Shown here piece after piece: positions 1-61,079 of a DNA stretch of 64,000 bases (within the stretch, counting starts at the first letter, position 1; each line of letters starts with the position of its first letter). The stretch spans positions 1 to 64,000 of the IMG/VR virus record IMGVR_UViG_3300025000_001646. One strand, written 5' to 3'. The stretch comes from a virus. A program made the position numbers and the translations under genes. A model generated the notes under the pieces. It had not been told where the DNA came from. It saw nothing but the letters and a program-made list of their open reading frames with translations, and did no database searches.

Positions 1-2441
1 ACCCGAGTGGCTGATACGATGTTTTACCAATGATTAAGCACCACGACGGGCAAATGGCAAAAGCTGCCCTTTGTCAATTCTTAGAGTTAGGAAATAATGG
101 AACTGGTAGTTGGGCATTAAGTCAAGATCAATCATCTTGGCTTATGATGGCAATACAATCTCTTCTTGATGACATTGCCGCTACTTTTGACAGTTATGTA
201 ATAGCTCCTCTTATAGATTGGAATTTTGGCACACAAGCCTACCCTAGACTTTCTTTTGAGCAAACAAATTCTCAATCCAAACAATTAATGATACAAGCCT
301 TTCAAGCTATTCTTGGTCAAGGCTCTTTACCTTCTGATTTTGTTAATGAAATTATTAACAAAGCGGCTGTTGAACTTAATCTTGAATATGAACCAAAAAC
401 TAAAGAAGAGTTTGAAGCTGAAACAAAAGAACCAGAGGAAGAACCAGAAGCTCCAGTAGAAGAACAAATAGAAGAACCAGAAGAAGTTATTGAAGATGAA
501 TGAGAGACAGAAGATGAATTAAACAATCAAGTTGAAGAAAAAAATACAGAACTTGAAGATTTATATAATAAATTAGACTCTAAAGAGAAAGAATTAAAAT
601 GAGAAATTGAAAAAGGTTTAGTTGATAGAGGTAAGGCTATTTCTGAGGCTCTTAAAGAATATTGGAGAAAAAAAGGTAAGAAAAAAGAAGAAGAACCAAA
701 GTGAAGAGAAAAAAAATGAAATACTCCAGATGAAAGAAAAGCTAGAGTTGCTTGAATGAAACAAAGAGCAGAGTCTTGAAAAGTAGAAAGACTTACAAAT
801 ATAGTAAAAGAACAAGACAAGGCTATTTCTTGAGCTAAAGATTTGCTTAGACAACTTTCTAATACAAAATCAATAACTAAAGACAAGGCACTTAAAGATA
901 AACTTTTGTGAGAAATTGCTAAACAAAAAGAAGTAATTGCTCAAATGCTTTGAAAAAAATCTGAATTAAAAGATAATCTTTCTGGTGCAAAATCAGAAGA
1001 AAAAGCTATTAAAGCAAAAGAAAAAGAAAAGGCTAAAGCTCAAAAAGAAAGAGAAAAAGAAGCTAAAAGAAAAGAAAGAGATGCTAAACAAAAAGAGAAA
1101 GAAAAAGCTAAGGCAGAAAAAGAAAAGGTTAAACAGAAAAGAGACAAAATAAAAGAAGAAATTTCATCTATACAATCAGAGATAGCAAGATTAAATATAA
1201 AGGCTTCTGATGCTAAAGATAAATGAGCAAAAGAAAAAATAAAAAATGAAATTAATAGAAAGAAAGAAGAAATATTGGCTAAAAAAGAATGATTTAAAAA
1301 TCTTTCAGAAAATGATAGTGATTTTGTTGAATTATATGATGATTGGTCGTTTGAATATGACTCTTGCATAGATTTATTGGATGAAGTAGCAAAAGAAAAA
1401 AAATACTGGAGACCAATGACTAAATATGAAGAAAGAGTAAATTTTGAAGCAATAGAAAAAGAAATGGACAAATGAGAAGATGAAACTAAGAAAAAACTTT
1501 GAGAAATTATAGACAAACAAAGAAGAGACTTGGCTAATCAAATCACAGAAATTCTAAAATCTTGAGACCCTAAAAAACTAGACACACTTACAATTAAATA
1601 CCAGAATGAATATAGCAAAGCTATTGGAGAAACTTACAAAAAGTTATTTGAGGAAGGAAAAAGAAGAGCTGCTGATGAAATTAAAGTCCCTGCTCCTTGA
1701 AATAATAAAGAAGTCAAAGACTTTATAGAACAAAAAATTAAATATTCTACTGATGTTCATCAAGAAAATATTTTGAAGCAAATAAAAGCTCCAATATTAG
1801 AAAAGTTAAAAAATAAAATTCAACTTTCTGATTTAGACGATGCAATGGATATTCTTTTCAATACAGACGAGCTTTCTGACACTGTTGAAGACATTATTTC
1901 AGCAACAGTGGTAGCAGAATCTTTTAACACTTGAAGAGATTTAGTTTTTAAAGCTAATGACGACCAAATATATGGTTATGAGTATTCAGCTTTGATGGAT
2001 TCTGATACTTGCGACTATTGTGCTAGTCTAGATTGAAGGGTTGTAGAGCCAAATAGTCCAGAATTTGAACAATATAGTCCAATTCAACATTTTAATTGCA
2101 GATGTATTTGGGTAGCAATACTTAAAGATGAAGAAGAACCACCAGAATTTACTGGTGTACCAAATTCAATTCCTCCTTCTACTCTTTCGACTTTCAAAAA
2201 TCTTACTACAATAATTCCTCTAAAGACTAATAAATCGGCTGTAAATATGGCCAAAAAAGAATTAGAAAGACTTGAGAGAGACACTGAAAGGTACGAAGAA
2301 AACGAAATATACGAAGACAGGGTAAAAACTAATAAGAAAAAAATAAAACAGCTTAAAAGGTCTGTTTGACTTTCAGATGAACAACAAGATGCCTTGAAAG
2401 ATTTTATTTCAGAAATTAACTCTTTAAATCTAAATGACTAA
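1..2441 (+). CDS. Portal (DUF935/Mu gp29-like) fused to MuF head-morphogenesis domain, 5' partial
   Basis: The reading frame is open from the window start to TAA at 2439-2441 if UGA is read as Gly. Residues about 1-130 resemble the C-terminal part of Mu-type portal proteins (DUF935). An acidic Glu/Pro linker follows, then a long Lys/Glu coiled coil (roughly residues 170-480). Near residues 665-705 is a MuF-type signature: CDYC, then LDGRVV with the Gly written TGA, then HFNCRC. Portal and MuF are usually separate neighbouring genes (Mu gp29 and gp30), so this looks like a fusion. Expected role: portal ring and procapsid assembly. The next gene overlaps its 3' end by 8 nt. Confidence 0.75.
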
Positions 2442-11599: not shown

Positions 11600-13489
11600 A
11601 TGTTCAAATACCCTTTTAATTTTAGTAAAAAATACCAAGAAGAAAACAGTTGAGATTGGATTGTTGAATGAATAGCTGCTACTAACGACAAAGACCTACA
11701 GAATCACATTATAGAGACTAGTGCATTAAAAGACGCTAGCAAAGACCTAGAATGAAAAACAGTATTATTCAATCATGACCAAGAAAGGCCTATTGGAGTA
11801 GTAATGTCATCTAATTACGATGAAAAAGAAAAATGAATTATTGTTAAAATTAAAATTTCTAAAGAAGAAGGAGACATTTGGAAAAAAATAAATGACTGAA
11901 CTCTTAATTCCCTTTCAATCTCTGGAGAAATAGAGGATGCAAAGGAATGAGAAGAGGTTTTAAAAATAAAAAAAATGAAACTAAGTGAAGTTTCAATAGT
12001 GTCATTGCCAGCTAATCCAGAGGCTAAAACACTTAATTATTATATTTCTAAAAGTTTAAATAATATGAAAAATTTTAAAAAAGAGATGAGTATGGACGTT
12101 GCGATAACAGAATTAAATAGAATGAAAGATGAATTGAATTGACCTGATGCAGAAGTTGCTGGTTATATTGCTATGTTTTTAGAACAACATAAACAAAAAA
12201 TGATGTGAGAAAAAATGGAGGAAGAAGAAACTGAAGAGACTAAAACTACTGAAACAGAACTTTCAGAAAAAGAAAGTACAGTTTACTTATTAGATTCAGA
12301 ATGAGGTTTAGATGAATCAGACAAAGGTACTTTTAGAAAACAAGTTTTAAGAATTGGTAAATTTTTTCATAAAGGTGCTAAAAATGGTATTCTTAATATT
12401 ACTAAACAATCCCTAGAAAAAATCATTAAGAATTTTAAGAATAAAGTTATAGACAATGTAAGCGTACCAATTACGCATACCTCTGACCCAGCTATGAATA
12501 CTGGGGAAGTAAAAGACTTAATTTTAACTGAAACATGATTAGACGCTATTTTAGAAATTAAAGACAAAAGTATTACCAAAAAAATAAATAAATGATTAAT
12601 TCAAGCTGTTTCAGCATCTATTGAAGAGAATTACGAAGACAAAGAAACTGGAAAAAAAATGTGACCAGTTATTCGTCACGTAGCTCTAGTATCAGAACCA
12701 TATATTAAAAAAATGTCAGCATTTCAAGCAGTTTCGCTTAGTGATGCTGAAAATTATAATCTAGTTTATTTAGAAGAAGAAGAAAAAGTAGAAGAACAAA
12801 TTGAAGAGATTAAAGAAGAACCAAAAGAAGATTTAAAATATGTAATTAATAAATTAATGGAAAAAGTTTCTGCTCTTGAAGCTAAATTTACAGAATCTCC
12901 TAAAGAGGAAACACCAAAAGAGGAAGCAAAAGCCGAGTCTGATGTTGTTGAGTCCAAAGAAGAGGAAAAAATTGAGACTAAAGAAGAAGAAATAAAAGAA
13001 GAGCCTAAAGAAGAAGATTGAATAAAAGAAGCATTTGAAAAAGCAAAACAAACAGAAAAAGAAGAGAAGCAGGAGGAAGAGGAAGACGAGGAAACCGAAC
13101 TTAGTGACACTAAAGCATTAGAGCTTAGTGAAAGAGAACAAGAATTAGTTAAAAAAGAAGCCGAGATTACTTACAACAATTATTTGACACAAGGAAAAAT
13201 AACTCCTTCTCAAAAAGATGTTTTTATTTCTATATTAACATCTAAAACTTGAGCAATTGACTTGGCTGACAATTCTCAAGCAGACCCTAAGAGCTTGATT
13301 AAAGAGTTCTTGGACAAACAGCCTAAGATTTACGACTTCAATGAAATAGGTACTACTCTTGAAAACGAAGCTAAAAACCATAATTCTGTAAATCTCTCAA
13401 GAGATGAAAGAAAGCTATTGGTTGAAACGCTTTGAATGACAGAAAAAGATGCCTTAGAAACAGTAATAGAAGCACGTAAAAATAAATAA
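11600..13489 (+). CDS. Fused HK97-type prohead protease, Mu I-like protease domain and scaffold
   Basis: 629 aa. Residues 1-150 match HK97 prohead proteases: His59 in NHD, Ser106 in SLSISG, then LSEVSIVSLPANPEA. Residues about 280-375 form a second domain of the Mu protein I/XkdF type (VPITHTSDPAMNTG, VSASIEENYED, RHVALVSEP). Residues 380-629 are an acidic Glu/Lys-rich helical tail, expected of a scaffold. It probably cleaves scaffold and capsid proteins during head maturation. TGA-Gly is frequent in the protease parts. The gene precedes decoration and major capsid genes, the classical order. Confidence 0.85.
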
Positions 13490-13968: not shown

Positions 13969-14913
13969 ATGGATTTAGTAAGATCAGATTTAACAAATCT
14001 ATTGAAAGCTGGTATGAAAAAGGAATTTTTCAAGGCTTTCGAATCAGAAGAAACTGCTTATAAAGCAATCGTAACTGAAACTTCTTCTGATAAAAATCAA
14101 GAAGTTTATCCATTTTTAGGTTCTTCTCCTACAATTTCTGAATGGAAAGATGAGAGAAAACCAGTTGGAATGACTGAATATTCTAAAACAATCGTAAACT
14201 ATGATTGGGAAGGAAGTCTAGGAGTTGAAACAAATGCTATTGACGATGAACAATATGGTCAAATCAAACTTCGGGTTCAAGATTTAGGTGGTCAATTTGC
14301 TCGTTTCTATGATGAATTAGTTTTCTCTTTAGTAAGAATGGGTAATTCTACTTCTGCTACTGCTGGAACAATTCTTGAAGGAAAAAGTATTACCGCTTAT
14401 GATGGAAAAGCTATGTTTGCAAATGATCATTCAGAAGGTGATTCAGGAACTATAGACAACTATGGAACTACTGCTTTTGGATCTAATGAACTTAAAGCAA
14501 TTATCACTGCTATGATGAAATTCAAAAATGACAAGGGTCGTTATGCTGGAATTACACCAAATCTTTTGGCAGTTTCTCCAGATGTTAAATGGGATGCTAT
14601 GGAAAAATTAAACTCTGTATATTACCCAGAAGAAGGAACAACCACTTCTAAAATGTCAAACAACGTATTGAAAGGTGCTTTGGATTTGATTGTTTCTCCT
14701 TGGTTAACTGACACAAACGATTATTTCGTTTTTGACACTACTAAGGCAATTAAACCAATCATTCTTCAAACTCGTAAAACTCCAGAATTTACTGCTCTAG
14801 ACACTGGTACTGAATCATTGTTTATGAGAAAACGTATTTTCTACGGAGTAGATGCTCGTATTGGTATTGGTTGGTCAAACTATAGACTTGGTTATGGAGA
14901 ATTTGTTGCTTAG
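13969..14913 (+). CDS. Major capsid protein, Mu gpT-like
   Basis: 314 aa. EVYPFLGSSPTISEWKDER, VNYDWEGSLGVETNAIDDEQYG and a YDELVFSLV helix follow the layout of Mu-like major head subunit gpT; length is typical. 26 glycines and none written TGA, in sharp contrast to the portal, protease and glycan genes. It would assemble the icosahedral head with the decoration protein and be matured by the protease at 11600. A strong terminator follows at once. Confidence 0.85.
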   Translation: MDLVRSDLTNLLKAGMKKEFFKAFESEETAYKAIVTETSSDKNQEVYPFLGSSPTISEWKDERKPVGMTEYSKTIVNYDWEGSLGVETNAIDDEQYGQIKLRVQDLGGQFARFYDELVFSLVRMGNSTSATAGTILEGKSITAYDGKAMFANDHSEGDSGTIDNYGTTAFGSNELKAIITAMMKFKNDKGRYAGITPNLLAVSPDVKWDAMEKLNSVYYPEEGTTTSKMSNNVLKGALDLIVSPWLTDTNDYFVFDTTKAIKPIILQTRKTPEFTALDTGTESLFMRKRIFYGVDARIGIGWSNYRLGYGEFVA

Positions 14914-30036: not shown

Positions 30037-30414
30037 ATGCAAACATTTTTACCATATTCAGACTTTAAAAAATCAGCTAAAAGTCTTGATTATAGAAGGC
30101 TAGGCAAACAACGAGTGGAATGTTACCAAATATTAAGAGCAAATTTAGGAATTACAAGTGGTTGGATTAATCATCCAATCACTAAAATGTGGAAAGGATT
30201 TGAATATTGCTTATTACAATACACTCTTGCTATATGTGATGAATGGATTGGAAAAGGTTATAAAGACACAATCAAGCAAAAGGTTTTAGATTTAGGAATA
30301 AAAAAATCAAATAAAAAACCTAGATTTCTAGGTAATAAATACTTCTACGAAAACTACCAGAAAATCCTTTTAGAGAAAAATTACAATTACTATTCTAATA
30401 TTTTTAAAATATGA
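30037..30414 (+). CDS. Pyrimidine-dimer DNA glycosylase-like protein
   Basis: 125 aa. QTFLPYSDFKKSAKSLD, RRLGKQRVECYQIL and WINHPITKMWKGFEYCLLQY match the endonuclease V/MSMEG_6728-type family of pyrimidine-dimer excision proteins. It ends in TGA inside an ATGA overlap with the methyltransferase gene; if UGA is Gly here too, translation runs 37 further codons to TAA. The family is often a little longer, so the true C terminus is uncertain. Confidence 0.7.
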   Translation: MQTFLPYSDFKKSAKSLDYRRLGKQRVECYQILRANLGITSGWINHPITKMWKGFEYCLLQYTLAICDEWIGKGYKDTIKQKVLDLGIKKSNKKPRFLGNKYFYENYQKILLEKNYNYYSNIFKI

Positions 30415-47792: not shown

Positions 47793-47859
47793 CGAGAAGT
47801 AGTTTAAGGAAAACATTAGCTACAAGCTAATAATCTAGGGTCGATACCTAGCTTCTCGA
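47793..47859 (+). tRNA. tRNA-like gene with anticodon ACA
   Basis: Acceptor CGAGAAG/CTTCTCG, short D arm GTTT/AAAC with loop AAGGA, anticodon arm ATTAG/CTAAT with loop CTACAAG (ACA after T33), T arm CTAGG/CCTAG with loop GTCGATA, A73. Cloverleaf complete but position 26 is missing and T54 is G. ACA would read UGU (Cys); if A34 became inosine it could also read UGA. No CCA encoded. Confidence 0.5.
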
Positions 47860-48909: not shown

Positions 48910-49233
48910 ATGAAAAAAATTTTATTATTGATTGTATTGTTTTTAACAATTAGCTGTTTAAGTACTTCCGTTGTTAATATTACAATGGATGGGAAAATGG
49001 TATATTTTTCTTCAAATAAGCCAGAATGGATTAACAAAGAAGGAATTATAAAAGAAACAAAAGATTTTAAACTTATTTGTTATAAAGATTCTGGTGATAC
49101 TGTTGAAGAAGCAATTCTTAAAATACAGGAAAGAATAAAAGAAAAAGGTTATATTTACAATGTTATTGTTTTATATAACAAAAAATATACTGTTTATATG
49201 TTATTTATTGAATTAAAAGGGAGGTTAATATGA
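48910..49233 (+). CDS. Lipoprotein
   Basis: 107 aa with signal peptide and lipobox (LLLIVLFLTISC, Cys16), then a small alpha/beta domain. AAGGAGG site. Ends in TGA that forms an ATGA junction with the next gene, as usual in standard-code genomes; read as Gly it would run 33 codons further. Confidence 0.65.
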   Translation: MKKILLLIVLFLTISCLSTSVVNITMDGKMVYFSSNKPEWINKEGIIKETKDFKLICYKDSGDTVEEAILKIQERIKEKGYIYNVIVLYNKKYTVYMLFIELKGRLI

Positions 49234-53133: not shown

Positions 53134-53238
53134 TTAAAAAAGGTTTAAAATAGAATTATATAAAAATGATACTATTCCAAAAATTTCTAATATACATAGA
53201 ATCATATATATTAATATGAAATATAAAAATACTTTCAT
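53134..53238 (-). CDS. 34-aa membrane peptide of the lysis unit
   Basis: Almost wholly hydrophobic (KVFLYFILIYMILCILEIFG). Its ATG overlaps the M23 stop (TAATG). Could be a second holin, antiholin or signal-anchor partner. Confidence 0.5.
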   Translation of the reverse strand: MKVFLYFILIYMILCILEIFGIVSFLYNSILNLF

Positions 53239-53729
53239 TAGTATTTAGAGATTTTATGTTGTAGAATCCATCATTTTCAAAAGCAATCGACAAATCATCC
53301 ATAGCCATTATATACATTTATAACATTTCATTTTTCATCTTTATATCTTAATCACCAATGTAGATGTGGTTTTCATTTAGCACAACCACTGTCTCAAGTC
53401 TTGGCTATTAATTGTCATTGAGTAACTTTTGAATTATGAGTAATTAAAATTTCCGATAAATGAGCTAAAACTGTTTGTCTTCTCTTGGCTCAAAATTCTT
53501 CTGTTATATAAATATATTTACCATATCCGTCTATTTCATAGCCAGTGGTTAATATTCAATCAAATGAAGCAAATACTTCTGTTCATATAGGAGTTTTTAG
53601 GTCTACTCAATTGTGTCAAGAAAGTCACCATTTTGCATAAAAAGGTGTTTTTGTTTTTTGGTCAATCCAAGTATTGCCGAAAGGATTGTATTTTGAATCA
53701 AAACCTTCTTTAACTGGTGCAATAATCAT
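53238..53729 (-). CDS. M23 family peptidoglycan endopeptidase (endolysin)
   Basis: 163 aa. SGHNGVDLKTPIGTEVFASFDG (HxxxD), TVLAHLSEI and GDSGCAKGKPHLHWGLR (HxH) are the zinc ligands and catalytic residues of LytM/lysostaphin enzymes. Twelve or more Gly are TGA, so the gene is invisible in standard code. Start follows AACTTTATTTTTATATG and a - strand promoter. Confidence 0.85.
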
Positions 53730-53834: not shown

Positions 53835-54866
53835 ATGAAAATTATAAATAAGTCATACAGACCAAAGGTTTTATTCCATTATTCAAATGAGTTTCACTAT
53901 TGCTGATTTGACGATTTAATGATTGAGTTAAGAAAAGATTTTGAGGTTACTAGTTTTTTTGATAGAAGAGTAAACGAAAATGAATATATTTGAATATTAA
54001 GATGTGTAAATCCAGATATTATAATTGATGTAGAATGGGACAGGAGAACAATGGAAAGTGAATTTAAAGACAAAATAAGAATACAATTGCCACATTGACT
54101 AGTATCTAAACATTATATGTATTGAGTGATTTGGAATAATTTTAGATATAATAAAACAATCACTTCTTGACCAGAAATTACTAAACAATTTATTGAAAGA
54201 GGATTGATTCCAAAAGAAAATTTGCTTGAATTAGGTTACCCGAAAATTGACAGACTACATAATGGATTTTATGACAAAGAAAAAATAAAAGAAAATTTAT
54301 GAATAAAAAATAATCTTAAAACTATTCTATACGCTCCTACATTCAAAGAATTTTCTTCTTTCAATTATTTTATTGAAGAAGATGAGGAGTATTTTTATAA
54401 AAGAATAAATTATTTAGCGAATAATTACAACATTATAATTAAGTTACACGCTTGAACACCAAACGAAAAATTTAAGCCGTATTTATTTGGAGAAAATGTT
54501 TACTTAATTTTTGATTATGATATTAGACCTTACCAATACTTAGCTGATATATGTATTTCTGATTTGTCTTCCGTAATATTTGAGTTTGCTTCACAAAACA
54601 AGCCAGTAATACTCCTTAGACCTTATGAAGATAACATTATAGACAAAAATTGAATAGAATGGACTATGAAAGACATAGGGACTAATTGTAAAAATTTAGA
54701 AGATTTAGAGAAGGCAGTTATGGAATATGATAAAAACCCAGAAAAAGACAGTGAAATCAGAGAAAAGTATAACAAACAAATATTTAAAAACTTATGATTT
54801 TCCAGTAAAATTCTAGCAAATAATATTCTAAAATTATATGAATCTAATAGTGCTTTCAGCTGGTAG
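53835..54866 (+). CDS. CDP-alcohol/glycerophosphotransferase-like transferase (TagB/TagF type)
   Basis: 343 aa. LGYPKIDRL, ILYAPTFKEFSSF, IIIKLHAGTP and CISDLSSVIFEFASQNKPVILL match the C-terminal catalytic region of CDP-glycerol glycerophosphotransferases. First gene of the phosphonate block; it may move a CMP-activated phosphonate or polyol phosphate onto a glycan. TGA-Gly throughout. It overlaps the next gene by 29 nt. Confidence 0.7.
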
Positions 54867-55488
54867 ATGAAGTAGGCTTAGACCACTAACAGACAACAAA
54901 CCAAAGGTACTATTGAAAATAAACTGAAAGACTATATTAGAAATGCTAAAAGAAAATGTTTGAGCCGAAAAAAATGTTGTAGTGACTTGATATCTTTGAG
55001 AAAAAATTGAAGAAAATAAGGTTACAAATGATTTATGGTATGAAAATGGTTCGTCTAGTAGTCTTTATTTGGCTAGAAACTACTTAAAATGAGATACAAT
55101 GATAGTTTATGGCGATATGATTATAGACAAAGAAGACTTTGAAGAAATGAAAAATCAAGATTGTATATTGGTAGATGACAAAGAAAAATGAGATGATTAT
55201 GATGAATATGTAAACAAAGACAGTCTTTGACTTAAATATAGAAGCGAGATTTGAGAATGTGAAAGATTTTTGTGAGCAATACATCTAAAAGAAGAAACTG
55301 CTAAAAAACTTTATAAATATTTTAAACCTTGAATGTTAAATTATAAGATTTGATTAGCCGACTTAATATGAGATTTTTTTGATGCTAACAATATAGACTT
55401 CAAAAAAGTTAAAGCTAAAAATAAATGGTTTGAATTAGACAAAATTCAAGATTATATAAATGCAAAAATATATTTTAATGATTATTAA
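54838..55488 (+). CDS. Nucleotidyltransferase, phosphonate/phosphocholine cytidylyltransferase-like
   Basis: 216 aa. LIVLSAGRGSRLRPLTDNKPKVLLKINGK, with breaks at two TGA-coded Gly, is the NTP-binding site of LicC/PntC-type enzymes; ENGSSSSLYLAR and IVYGDMIIDKEDF follow. LicC makes CDP-choline; PntC makes CMP-2-aminoethylphosphonate. The neighbouring PEP mutase favours a phosphonate substrate. Confidence 0.75.
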
Positions 55489-55491
55489 AAA

Positions 55492-56370
55492 ATGAAACTT
55501 CCTAAAATAAATTTTCAAGAAAAACTTAACTTAAAATGACAAGTTATAATCACTACATTTGATACTGGATTAAAAGACAATGAAATTATAATGATTTCAG
55601 AAGAGCCTAGCAAAGAAGAATTAGACAAAATAGTTTTTCAAACAATTACTGACACTATTTATGCTATTGGTGGTGGATCAGCTATTGATTGAGCTAAATA
55701 CCTATGCAATAAAGAAGGTAAAAAATTAATAGCAATACCAACAACTTTTTCTGGATCGGCTTCCTCTAGTCACTTAGTATTGAAAGAAAACTGAAAGAAA
55801 AAAGGTTATTCTGGAAATGAATACATACCAGATGAAGTAATAATCATCAACGATTTGCTTTACACTTTACCAGCTAAAACTTTCTTTTATTCTCTTATAG
55901 ATTGTTTTGCACATTCGCAAGAGGCTGTTAGAAGCAATAAGAATAATTTTATTATAGAATTAATTTCTGAAAATATTATAGGAACTTTTGGTAATGTTTT
56001 ACAAATGAAATTTGAGGACTTTATAAAACTTGATGAAAATAAAATGGAAGAAGAAAAAGCATTATTAGTTAGAGATTTTGGAAAAGTTTTATTAGTTATT
56101 TCTCTTTATGCTAGTTATATATTAAGTGAAGCTGGGACTAATTTACCACATGCAATTTCTTATGCTATTAGCAATTATGGACTTTCACATTGAGAAGCTA
56201 TAGCAATAGTTTATGGACTTAATGACAGAAGAATGAAAGACCTTTGAATAGAATTTGATTTAGAAAAAATGACAGATGAAATTTTATTAGATAGACACCA
56301 TTTAGACAATTTTCCTTGAGAAATTTCTAAGGATTTAATATTTAATACACTTAAAAAACTTTATGAATAG
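55492..56370 (+). CDS. Fe-type alcohol dehydrogenase, phosphonoacetaldehyde reductase candidate
   Basis: 292 aa, short for the family. AIGGGSAIDGAKYL (cofactor site, residues 58-71), IPTTFSGSASSSHL, LIDCFAHSQEA and LSHGEAIAIVYG (metal His ligands). Next to PEP mutase and phosphonopyruvate decarboxylase it would reduce phosphonoacetaldehyde to 2-hydroxyethylphosphonate, as PhpC does in other pathways. Confidence 0.75.
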
Positions 56371-57142
56371 GATTATTGGTTGCCATAATGCAATGACGGC
56401 TATATTATGAGAAGAGGCTTGATTTGATATGCTTTGGGCTTCTTGATTCGAGATTTGCACTTCTAAATGAATACCAGACAAGGATATACTTACTCAAACA
56501 GAATTTCTTGATGCTTTTAGAGAAATTAAAAACTCAGTTAAAATACCAGTAATTATAGATGCTGATACTGGTGGGACTTTAGAACAACTTAAAAGAATGA
56601 TTACTTTTTATAATCAAATTTGAATAGATTGAATATGTATAGAAGACAAGAAATTTCCAAAGACTAATAGTTTTATTGAAAAATGACAAGAACTTGAAGA
56701 AATAGATTTGTTTTGTAAAAAAATAAAGTTATTGAGCAAAGAATTTTCTGGAATGATTTTTGCTAGAATAGAAGCACTTATTGCTGGAAAATGAGAAGAT
56801 GAAGCTATAAAAAGAGCTAAGGAATATATAAAAGCTGGTGCTAATGTTATTTTAATTCATTCAAAAAGCGAAACTCCAGATGAAATAGTCTCTTTTTGCA
56901 GAAGGTATAAGAAGGAATGACTTACTATTCCTATTGCAATTATTCCAACAAAATATACAAGTTTTACTGAAAATTACATAAAAAAATACCCTCAAATTAA
57001 ATATGTTATTTATGCTAATCAATGAATAAGATCTTCAATAAAAGCAATAAAAGAAACTTATAAAAAGATTTTAAAAGATTGAGGCGTAAATAATTTAAAT
57101 ATTTCTACTCTTGATGACTGTTTTAAAATACAATGATTATAG
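56363..57142 (+). CDS. Phosphoenolpyruvate phosphomutase
   Basis: 259 aa. EDKKFPKTNS at residues 94-103 is the EDKxxxxxNS signature that separates PEP mutase from other isocitrate-lyase-type enzymes; DADTGGT precedes it and ARIEALIAGKG follows. Catalyses PEP to phosphonopyruvate, the entry step of all common phosphonate synthesis. Twelve of 19 Gly are TGA. Overlaps both neighbours. Confidence 0.9.
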
Positions 57143-57438
57143 GCGTTCCATATTCTGGCTGTGATTTTAAAGACGCTATTTATTTTCCTAGAGAAAATAG
57201 TGCTTTAGGTTATGCTATTTGAGCTAGACTAGCTTGAAAGGATGTTACTGTATTTATGCAAAACTCTTGATTATGGCATATATGAGATTTATTTTCCTCT
57301 TTCTTAATTCCTAGCAAACTTAAATGAATAAAATTTATTATTAACAACAGAAAAGAGCCAGAGCATCACAAGCATTCTTTTGAAAATATAAATAATCTCT
57401 TAAAAATTTATGGAATTGAAAATGCCGAACTTAACTAG
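57133..57438 (+). CDS. Phosphonopyruvate decarboxylase, N-terminal (alpha) subunit
   Basis: 101 aa. FPRENSALGYAIGARLAGKD and FMQNSGLWHIGDLFSSF match the N-terminal half of Ppd and related ThDP decarboxylases (ENxAxGxAxGxxLAG; MQNSGLG). The catalytic half is the next gene, overlapping by 17 nt. Shorter than usual (about 160-180). Confidence 0.75.
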
Positions 57439-57889
57439 AAGCACAGCTATATTGTCTATTGCAAAATTAAAATATGATGAACCATTAGTTATAGCATCAA
57501 CTTGATTAAATTCAAAAGCTCTTTATTCTTTAGGTCATCGAGACAGATTTTTATATAATAGATGAGCATATTGAGAAACTTGAATAATAGCATTAGGTAT
57601 TGCCGAGAATACTAATAAAGAAGTAGTAGTAATTGATTGAGACGGTAGTTTTCTGGCTTGATTTGCTAATTACCCGATTATATTAGAAAGGAAGCCTAAA
57701 AATTTGCATTATTATATTTTAAGAAACTGAAAAACACAGACTACTTGATGACAACCTCTTATACAATTTCCTAAATTAGACAAATACTTTACTATTTTTG
57801 ATATAGACGAAGACGACAGAAAGCCTCAAAACATAGAAATTACTATTGAAGAAAATGTAAAATCTTTTATGGAATATTTAAAATCTTAA
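57422..57889 (+). CDS. Phosphonopyruvate decarboxylase, C-terminal (beta) subunit
   Basis: 155 aa. VIDGDGSFLAGFAN (residues 70-83; first Gly TGA) is the ThDP/Mg-binding GDGS motif; LVIASTGLNSKALYSL and GAYGETGIIALGIAE precede it, RNGKTQTTGGQP follows. Decarboxylates phosphonopyruvate to phosphonoacetaldehyde, pulling the unfavourable mutase reaction forward. Confidence 0.8.
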
Positions 57890-57898
57890 TTTTATTTT

Positions 57899-58336
57899 AT
57901 GATTAACGGTGTAAAAATTATTGACGTTAATAGATTCTGGGATGACAGATGATTTTTTGCAGAGGTATGGAGGAAGTCTCAACAATGAGAAATGGCTCAA
58001 ATGTCTTTCACTAAAACTTACCCTTGAGTTGTCAAGGCTTTTCACTACCACGAAAAACAAGATGATTTATGGTTTTGTGTAGAAGGAAATCTAAGAGTAG
58101 TTTTAAAAGACCTTAGAGAAGACTCTCCTACTTTTAATGAAGTGCAAACTATTTATATTGGTGAAAAATCTCAAGCAGTTTATATTCCTAAAATGGTAGC
58201 TCACGGTTATAAAGTTATGGGAGAAAAGCCAGCTAAACTTATTTATTTGACAACACAAGAATATGATGTAAAAAATCCAGACGAGAAAAGAATACCTTAT
58301 GACGAATTTTATGATTGGAAAACAGTTTTTAAGTAA
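57899..58336 (+). CDS. rmlC: dTDP-4-dehydrorhamnose 3,5-epimerase-like
   Basis: 145 aa. FWDDRGFFAEVWR, VVKAFHYHEKQDDLWFCVEG and IPKMVAHGYKV are the RmlC cupin motifs, though the protein is shorter than typical RmlC (about 180). Acts after RmlB in dTDP-rhamnose synthesis. Last gene before the tRNA. Confidence 0.75.
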
Positions 58337-58385: not shown

Positions 58386-58460
58386 GCGGGGATGAGGTAA
58401 AGTCTAGCCTGAATCGCTTCAACCGATTAAGTAGGGGATAGTCTCCCCTTCTCCGCTCCA
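58386..58460 (+). tRNA. tRNA-Gly with anticodon UCA (decodes UGA)
   Basis: 75 nt. Acceptor GCGGGGA/TCTCCGC with U73 and encoded CCA; D arm AGGT/GCCT; anticodon arm AATCG/CGATT with loop CTTCAAC, anticodon TCA at 58419-58421; 4-nt variable loop; T arm AGGGG/CCCCT with loop ATAGTCT. G1:C72, C2:G71, G3:C70, U73 and C35 are bacterial glycine identity elements. The D and T loops lack the usual GG and TTC, so it may need unusual tertiary contacts. It explains reading of UGA as Gly. Confidence 0.85.
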
Positions 58461-58475
58461 ATAATTTTTATTTTT

Positions 58476-58796
58476 ATGGGATCATCAAAGCACGGATTAA
58501 AGCCAAATCAAATATCAGTAAAAAGAAAAAGCACTAAAGTAAAAGGTGTTTCTCGTTTAAATCATTGGTCTACTATTTCAAAAATGAATATTGAAGATAA
58601 GAAAGTAAATGGTTATGTAACTAATATAACTAATATAAAAGGAAATACATTTTGGTGGTATTCTAAAGGAAGAAAAACTTGTTTAGACACAGGACTTAAA
58701 TGTGATCCAGATGGTTATAATAGATGGAATACTTATGAAAATCACCTAATAAGAAAAAAGAGATTTAAAAATCGTGTCAGAAAAAATACTATTTAA
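58476..58796 (+). CDS. Basic hypothetical protein
   Basis: 106 aa, Lys/Arg/Trp-rich (SVKRKSTKVKGVSRLNHWS, FWWYSKGRKTCLD). First gene after the tRNA, with the ATTTTTATTTTTATG signal. Possibly nucleic-acid binding. No TGA. Confidence 0.55.
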   Translation: MGSSKHGLKPNQISVKRKSTKVKGVSRLNHWSTISKMNIEDKKVNGYVTNITNIKGNTFWWYSKGRKTCLDTGLKCDPDGYNRWNTYENHLIRKKRFKNRVRKNTI

Positions 58797-58808
58797 TTTT
58801 ATATTTTT

Positions 58809-59099
58809 ATGGCTCAACACATTGGAATGATATTGGAAGATGAAGATGGAAAATTAATTAAAGACTCTAAATTAAATTTTCAAGATGTTTTAGATAAATG
58901 TGATGTTAGTGATAATGAATGGTTAGGCACAATAGATGAATATGGAAATACTGTATTTAATAATATTCAAATACCTATAATAATTAATGAATTAAAAGAA
59001 TTACCAGTAGAAGAAGAAAATTATACATTAATTAATAAATTTATAAAATTTTTAGAGCAAGCAGAGGATCACGAATATATAAAATTTATTGGAGATTAA
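58809..59099 (+). CDS. Acidic hypothetical protein
   Basis: 96 aa, acidic, with NEWLGTIDEYGNTVFNNIQI then a helical end. Function unknown. Confidence 0.5.
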   Translation: MAQHIGMILEDEDGKLIKDSKLNFQDVLDKCDVSDNEWLGTIDEYGNTVFNNIQIPIIINELKELPVEEENYTLINKFIKFLEQAEDHEYIKFIGD

Positions 59100-59111
59100 C
59101 TTTTAATTTAT

Positions 59112-59357
59112 ATGATTATAGAAATACCAGATATAAAAGACCGTAATGGAAAAACAGTAAGAATGGGAGATGTTATATATTTTCCAGAACAAAGTCTTCA
59201 CAATACATTGGTTAGATGGGATGAGGAAGAATTTTGTTTAGTACCTTTTAATTATAAATATTATTATTATAAAGACCAAGAAACTGGAAAAATGTGTCCT
59301 TTTGAAATAGTAGGAAATATAAAAGAAGAACCAAATTTACAATATGGAAGAGATTAA
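59112..59357 (+). CDS. Small beta-barrel-like protein
   Basis: 81 aa. IKDRNGKTVRMGDVIYF and LVRWDEEEFCLVPF resemble the GDxI core of YopX-like/SH3-like small phage proteins. Function unknown. Confidence 0.5.
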   Translation: MIIEIPDIKDRNGKTVRMGDVIYFPEQSLHNTLVRWDEEEFCLVPFNYKYYYYKDQETGKMCPFEIVGNIKEEPNLQYGRD

Positions 59358-60279: not shown

Positions 60280-61079
60280 TTTTTGGTGCTAATGGGATGC
60301 TAGGGAAAGACTTGGTAAAAATAGATTGATTTAAAATTTACCCAGACTATAAAACAGACATTACTAATTGATTACAAGTATTTATAAAGACTTTATTGGT
60401 TAGACCAGATTACATAATTAATTGTGCCGCTTATACTGATGTTGATTGAGCCGAGAATGATGACAATGTTTGAAAATGCTGGAGTGTTAATTCTTGTAGT
60501 AAATTGGTCGGTATATGTAAACTTTTTAATACACCTCTTGTAGCATTTTCTACTGATTATGTTTTTAATTGAAAGAAAAAAGAAGGCTATTCAGAAGACG
60601 AAAAACTTCATAATAATAGACCTCTTGAAATATATTGAATGAGTAAATGGATAATGGAATTTAACATATTAAAAAATCTCAAGAAATATTATATTATTAG
60701 GATTTCATCTCTTTTCGGGAAAAATGGTAAGAATTTCGTAGACTTAATCTTAAATTATGAGAAAGAAATAAACGTGCTTTGAAATAATAAAATGAAACCT
60801 ACTTATACAGTAGATTTAGCAGAGAATGTTAAAAAACTTTTACAACTAGAATATCCTTATTGAACATACCACTTCACAAACGAATGAGCTTGCTCTTGGT
60901 ATGAATTTGCTAAAGAAATAAATAAATACAGAACACAACCAATCAAAATAAACAAGGTAGATGAATTTAAAAGACCAGCCGAGAGACCTCAATATTCTGA
61001 ATTGATTAATAATTCACCTTTAAAAATGAGGCACTGGAAAGAATCTCTCAAAGATTATATTTCTAACATTAAAAAGTAA
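60264..61079 (+). CDS. rmlD: dTDP-4-dehydrorhamnose reductase
   Basis: 271 aa. ILVFGANGMLGKDLV (NADPH site), INCAAYTDVDGAEND, FSTDYVFNGKKKEGYSEDE and IYGMSKWIMEFNI (Tyr-Lys) follow RmlD order; five of the Gly named here are TGA. Completes dTDP-L-rhamnose synthesis with the 22288, 23214 and 57899 genes. Confidence 0.8.

Follow-up and report, generated by a model that had tools for sequence, protein, structure and literature searches.

A diverged tRNA-Gly(UCA)-like gene in a phage that uses UGA in late genes and nearly avoids it in replication genes

Genetic code 25, in which UGA encodes glycine, is known from two candidate bacterial lineages. In Absconditabacteria and Gracilibacteria, which use this code, tRNAs with the anticodon UCA are classed as glycine acceptors by the base pairs G1:C72, C2:G71 and G3:C70 and the discriminator U73 (PMC8629427). 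Phages of code-25 bacteria are known, some of them compatible with code 11 (PMC10746230), and one phage, RSA-ATP1 (39 kb, four tRNAs, predicted host Strigamonas, inferred code 25), encodes a tRNA-Gly-sup(TCA) that was called the first in a patescibacterial phage in March 2026 (PMC13059738). Recoding of late genes with suppressor tRNAs is also described, for TAG to Gln and TGA to Trp, in PMC10746230 and works cited there.

Here we describe a tRNA-Gly(UCA)-like gene in a window of 64,000 nucleotides, positions 1 to 64,000 of the IMG/VR virus record IMGVR_UViG_3300025000_001646 (Table 1). Judged by the above criteria alone, it matches the tRNAs of Absconditabacteria and Gracilibacteria in its UCA anticodon and in all four acceptor-end elements (PMC8629427), and differs from them in being a phage gene whose D and T loops fall outside the general tRNA model. 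With RSA-ATP1 this phage shares a UCA tRNA assigned to glycine and many in-frame UGA codons (PMC13059738); it differs in the degenerate elbow of its tRNA (the two tRNAs being set apart here by description), in replication genes that have no sense UGA and in some cases probably terminate at this codon, and in having standard-coded phages as the nearest capsid relatives found. It resembles the stop-recoding phages described in PMC10746230 in that the recoded codon abounds in late and lysis genes and is missing from others, and in encoding a tRNA for that codon; unlike them, it reads UGA as Gly, not TAG as Gln or UGA as Trp, and no synthetase or release factor was found in it. A phage-encoded tRNA-Gly(UCA) is therefore not unprecedented (PMC13059738), and the two-code layout and degenerate elbow are a variant; none of the papers searched describes a phage whose replication and late genes are divided in this way by UGA-to-Gly recoding.

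Table 1. Features of the window, with coordinates given in window positions
Feature	Position	Strand	Basis or remark
Portal/minor head fusion	30-2441	+	18 in-frame TGA; late, TGA = Gly
Head maturation protease	11600-13489	+	15 in-frame TGA
Major capsid protein, late gene	13969-14913	+	26 Gly codons, 0 TGA
Region B: replication, repair and modification genes	28608-52774 (about 28.5-53 kb)	+	essentially no sense TGA
Pyrimidine-dimer glycosylase	30037-30414	+	likely end at TGA 30412-30414; ATGA overlap with methyltransferase start at 30411
Region-B gene	48910-49233	+	candidate end at TGA (49231); ATGA overlap into Pfam-supported DUF7768 gene at 49230
M23 peptidase, likely lysis gene	53238-53729	-	14 in-frame TGA in 163 codons
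Glycan/phosphonate cassette, TGA-rich	53835-58336	+	upstream of tRNA(UCA)
tRNA-Gly(UCA)-like gene	58386-58460	+	75 nt, encoded 3' CCA; ARAGORN, cloverleaf fold
Acceptor stem, 5' strand GCGGGGA	58386-58392	+	pairs with TCTCCGC 58450-58456; carries identity positions G1, C2, G3
D loop AAAGTCTA	58399-58406	+	without G18G19; sequence
Anticodon TCA	58419-58421	+	loop CTTCAAC 58417-58423; ARAGORN
T loop ATAGTCT	58438-58444	+	without TTC(R)A; sequence
Discriminator U73 and encoded CCA	58457-58460	+	sequence
Three small TGA-free genes	58476-59357	+	directly downstream of tRNA(UCA); third YopX-like

ARAGORN calls a tRNA(tca) at exactly this span and strand. The gene reads GCGGGGA TG AGGT AAAGTCTA GCCT G AATCG CTTCAAC CGATT AAGT AGGGG ATAGTCT CCCCT TCTCCGC T CCA and keeps 21 of 21 stem pairs, two of them G-U: a 7-bp acceptor stem (GCGGGGA/TCTCCGC, one G-U), a 4-bp D stem (AGGT/GCCT, one U-G), a 5-bp anticodon stem (AATCG/CGATT) and a 5-bp T stem (AGGGG/CCCCT). 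UCA sits in a 7-nt loop with U33 and a purine at position 37 (A37), and the acceptor end carries the complete glycyl-tRNA synthetase (GlyRS) identity set, G1:C72, C2:G71, G3:C70 and U73. Folded without constraints, the RNA adopts the cloverleaf as its minimum-energy structure (-25.6 kcal/mol); the z-score against shuffles is just -1.75, which counts against a functional reading. When the contig was dinucleotide-shuffled 120 times (10.1 Mb in all), ARAGORN made 0 calls, and on 560 kb of fetched loci it returned copies of two other phage tRNA(UCA) genes, both above the Rfam cut-off, together with this phage's second tRNA; a chance match is therefore very unlikely. The gene is known from one assembly, since a second copy of the genome from another metagenome (G001) starts at 60,919 and so lies outside the tRNA region. 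An earlier note on this DNA had proposed a 75-nt cloverleaf with UCA, an encoded CCA and the glycine identity set, as well as atypical D and T loops, and both the ARAGORN call with its intact pairs and the loop sequences bear this out.

As RNA, the D loop is AAAGUCUA, with no GG, and the T loop is AUAGUCU, with no UUC. The expectation that tRNA models would score the gene held for ARAGORN and failed for Rfam: RF00005 gave no match at its gathering score, and a local search up to E=5 left the gene unmatched, the sole match being a chance snoRNA. Because the gene thus departs from the general tRNA consensus in the GG of the D loop, the TTCRA of the T loop and the RF00005 cut-off, it is described here as a diverged tRNA-Gly(UCA)-like gene and is not counted among the canonical ones.

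The promoter that the earlier note had assigned to the gene did not hold up. No sigma-70-like site was found directly upstream, the nearest match on the plus strand ends at 58276, within the preceding gene, and the surroundings contain 12 such sites versus 16.4 in shuffles. With no recognisable promoter and a run of genes on the same strand, processing out of a longer transcript is the simpler reading. The upstream cassette encodes a glycerophosphotransferase, a nucleotidyltransferase, an iron-dependent alcohol dehydrogenase (Fe-ADH), a PEP mutase, a TPP enzyme and a sugar epimerase. Its PEP mutase, phosphonopyruvate-decarboxylase-like TPP enzyme, Fe-ADH, nucleotidyltransferase and CDP-glycerol glycerophosphotransferase suggest phosphonate-decorated glycans, and in a relative (L054) similar PEP mutase, TPP and ADH proteins are written in the standard code. 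The phage also has a second tRNA at 47793-47859 (49 bits with RF00005) with no encoded CCA and the anticodon ACA, that is, a rare A34 for the codon UGU. Genes near it (47886, 48910 and 49602) stand out from the rest by true Shine-Dalgarno sites, and the surrounding segment may therefore be inserted.

That UGA means glycine in this genome, which the earlier note had taken as an independent finding, is well supported by comparison with standard-coded relatives. TGA aligns with Gly at 23 of 47 residues and with Trp at 0, while in the same alignments GGN aligns with Gly at 55 of 98 and other codons do so in 2.7%. In solved homologues, TGA falls on glycine at 7/9 positions in GroEL, 7/11 in PEP mutase and 4-5/9 in RmlD, and all four alignable TGA codons of the head maturation protease (4/4) are Gly in a standard-coded relative. 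Across genes, TGA and GGA trade off against each other (rho = -0.66, the strongest such relation among all codons). The tape-measure gene contains 35 in-frame TGA codons, and the terminase is also among the TGA-rich genes. A GroES-like protein and GroEL (L002, 13896-15772; contig 75895-77771) both contain in-frame TGA.

The record as a whole is an 84,486-nt virus contig with 127-nt identical ends; as a contig from another metagenome crosses the joint at 99.98-100% identity, the genome, of about 84.4 kb, is probably circular and complete. Within it, UGA is used very unevenly. TGA:GGA is 9:226 in region B and 464:359 elsewhere (Fisher p about 6e-56), and the nine TGA of region B are mostly probable gene ends, not sense codons. 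GGA is the main glycine codon in region B, which encodes a DnaB helicase, a Sak annealing protein, a DNA methyltransferase, the pyrimidine-dimer glycosylase and YopX, among others; many of the structural, lysis and glycan genes favour TGA over the other glycine codons. The recoded codon is thus found in late genes and is essentially absent as a sense codon from replication and early genes, where 'early' and 'late' are taken from gene function, gene calls are mechanical and the region borders were set after inspection of the data. The split is imperfect: the stretch at 58.5-63.9 kb forms a mosaic, and of the 26 Gly codons in the capsid gene none is TGA (p about 1e-5), against an average of 36% TGA among the Gly codons of region A. 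The phage may keep UGA out of its most highly expressed genes, such as the capsid gene.

Both parts of the genome nevertheless look alike in other respects. Region B has nearly the codon usage of the rest (r about 0.97) and the same GC3, and a motif before gene starts recurs in 32/42 genes in region B, 12/22 in region A and 13/22 in region E. This motif, TAA[CT]NTT (often TAACCTT), precedes ATG at -17 to -15 in the majority of genes, whichever code region they lie in, its TAA often being the stop of the upstream gene; Shine-Dalgarno sites are almost absent at gene starts, both in the window (1-64000) and in the contig to 84486. It is absent or nearly so in the standard-coded relatives and absent in both other TGA-recoded phages described below, and it may point to a host with an unusual 16S tail. 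The agreement of codon usage, GC3 and start motif argues that both code regions are adapted to one host.

Region B also appears to use TGA as a stop. There are five candidates, three of which are short ORFs. The glycosylase product has 125 residues when ended at its TGA and 164 when read through, and its homologues stop near residue 120-123, in agreement with the shorter product. Because ATGA junctions with short extensions, like those listed in Table 1, occur in TGA-rich regions too, termination of some region-B genes at UGA is likely, not proven.

In the closest relatives found by capsid (L004 and L052-L055, 45-49% identity), TGA ends genes and does not serve as a sense codon, which makes the recoding look like a derived trait that arose inside a group of standard-coded phages. 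DNA searches of phages and plasmids, and a search with the gene's own D/T-loop pattern, found no relative with the same tRNA(UCA); the sole match to that pattern, L042, does not score as a tRNA in ARAGORN and shows no sign of TGA recoding in its ORFs. Of 34 matches to a first tRNA-Gly(UCA) pattern, 33 are not tRNAs by ARAGORN and one is real (L022); a second pattern returned L022 and L048. A helicase-based search for relatives of the early module found none, and a genome scan turned up no code-25 genome, its hits being Priestia and a Pelagibacteraceae MAG. CGA/CGG = Trp, a marker of Absconditabacteria, was dropped because both codons are too rare to serve.

Two other IMG/VR phage contigs, IMGVR_UViG_3300036985_004989 (G003; L044) and 3300033509_000087 (G004), have in-frame TGA and a canonical tRNA-Gly(UCA), scoring 58.1 and 55.9 bits with RF00005, respectively. 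Their tRNAs share the anticodon and identity elements with ours and have normal GG and TTC loops, which ours does not, with little sequence similarity beyond the acceptor end and anticodon loop. G004 is TGA-rich across the 15.8 kb examined. In G003 (L044 16824-21331) the tRNA lies between TGA-free genes, one of them a repair exonuclease, and TGA-rich packaging and head genes (TGA:GGA 1:24 versus 159:64, p about 3e-11), so that this phage also shows the same partition. These independent TGA-using phages count in favour of a functional tRNA in ours.

How, then, should the gene and the split be understood? Close to an even chance, in our estimate, is that the host already uses code 25, as in Absconditabacteria or Gracilibacteria, and that the phage tRNA supplements a host tRNA. 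The TGA-free block would then have been acquired from standard-coded phages, or been kept free of TGA by slow UGA decoding, an account that we rate likewise at slightly below even. We found no release-factor or synthetase domain in the phage; the gene-by-gene mosaic at 58.5-63.9 kb resembles the acquisition of single genes; the TGA-free capsid gene is what inefficient decoding of TGA might produce; RSA-ATP1, with its inferred code-25 host, carries such a tRNA too (PMC13059738), as does G004, which is TGA-rich throughout the examined part; and the scarcity of Shine-Dalgarno sites fits SR1, reported to be poor in them. Against this account, region B does not look newly arrived in codon usage, GC3 or start motif, and at least one region-B gene appears to be TGA-terminated at a homology-supported end.

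A true code switch, which we entertain somewhat more tentatively, would have UGA as a stop in the host, early genes written in the standard code, and late genes in which the phage tRNA, together with a countering of RF2, turns UGA into Gly. Its most specific form is a little more doubtful still, and has the elbow-degenerate tRNA-Gly(UCA) flipping UGA from stop to glycine midway through infection of a standard-code host, the early phase following the standard code, UGA stops included, and the late phase code 25. Such a switch would be consistent with the near absence of early sense TGA, with the likely TGA stops in early genes, with TGA-rich late and lysis genes, with the standard-coded capsid relatives, with the same layout in the unrelated G003 and with the timing logic described for TAG- and TGA-recoded phages, as summarised in PMC10746230. 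But with 35 UGA codons in the tape-measure gene, RF2 would have to be overcome almost fully, and no RF2-countering factor was found in the phage. PF00472 (RF-1), PF00587 (class-II tRNA synthetase 2b) and PF02091 (GlyRS-alpha) are all absent, a synthetase or release factor being an optional feature present in some code-switching phages. Moreover, genes rich in TGA lie on both sides of the tRNA, upstream and downstream, which counts against both a switch and a functional tRNA, and the early timing of region B comes from gene function only. The literature searched yielded no UGA-to-glycine switch in a standard-code host. We rate a switch and the boosting of an existing reassignment about equal.

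It is unlikely, in comparison, that the tRNA shape is kept without decoding, whether because the gene is decaying, mimics a tRNA or donates glycyl groups outside translation. With the GG and TTC motifs lost from its loops and no Rfam score, the tRNA could be slow, unstable or unused in decoding. However, all stems, the anticodon, U33, A37, U73 and CCA are intact, decay would be expected in the stems too, and the surrounding genome uses UGA as Gly. Moreover, the loops may still allow an elbow. The D loop can be read as A14 A15 A16 G18 U19 C20 U20a A21, and with this numbering the contacts U8-A14, A15-U48 and G18-U55 would be kept, and G19-C56 would be replaced by a compensated U19-A56 pair, which would preserve the elbow. 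A tRNA-Sec, as ARAGORN labels UCA tRNAs (tRNA-SeC), or a code-4 tRNA-Trp(UCA) can be dismissed as highly improbable, since the 75-nt gene has a 7-bp acceptor stem and a 4-nt variable loop with no long variable or extended acceptor arm, and its discriminator is U73, not G73, in a genome where no TGA aligns to Trp and Gly is its usual partner in the alignments.

Overall, we consider it probable that 58386-58460 is a functional, strongly diverged phage tRNA-Gly(UCA) serving the UGA-rich late genes, a reading compatible with either a switch or a boost. While the form of the gene, the meaning of UGA and the uneven use of UGA are shown by the data above, its expression, charging, decoding and timing are inferred: the host GlyRS would charge the tRNA through the acceptor-stem and U73 identity elements, the charged tRNA would read UGA as glycine, and the UGA-rich late genes (virion, GroEL, lysis and glycan) would become translatable. 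The replication and recombination genes would not need it because they have essentially no sense UGA. The missing relative with the same tRNA, Rfam match and recognisable promoter count against this assignment; the earlier suggestion that such a tRNA could raise or switch on UGA decoding is plausible, and the contrast in UGA use between replication genes and late genes fits it.

The phage combines a UGA = Gly assignment that apparently arose in a standard-coded group, a UGA-glycine tRNA of its own and a genome recoded in only part of its genes. If functional, the tRNA would probe how little of the canonical D/T-loop elbow suffices for a bacterial decoding tRNA. If the host is code 25, phages there can keep replication genes readable under both codes. 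If the host is standard-coded, the phage would provide a UGA-to-Gly code switch, which might serve as a model for the bacterial reassignment or be its source.
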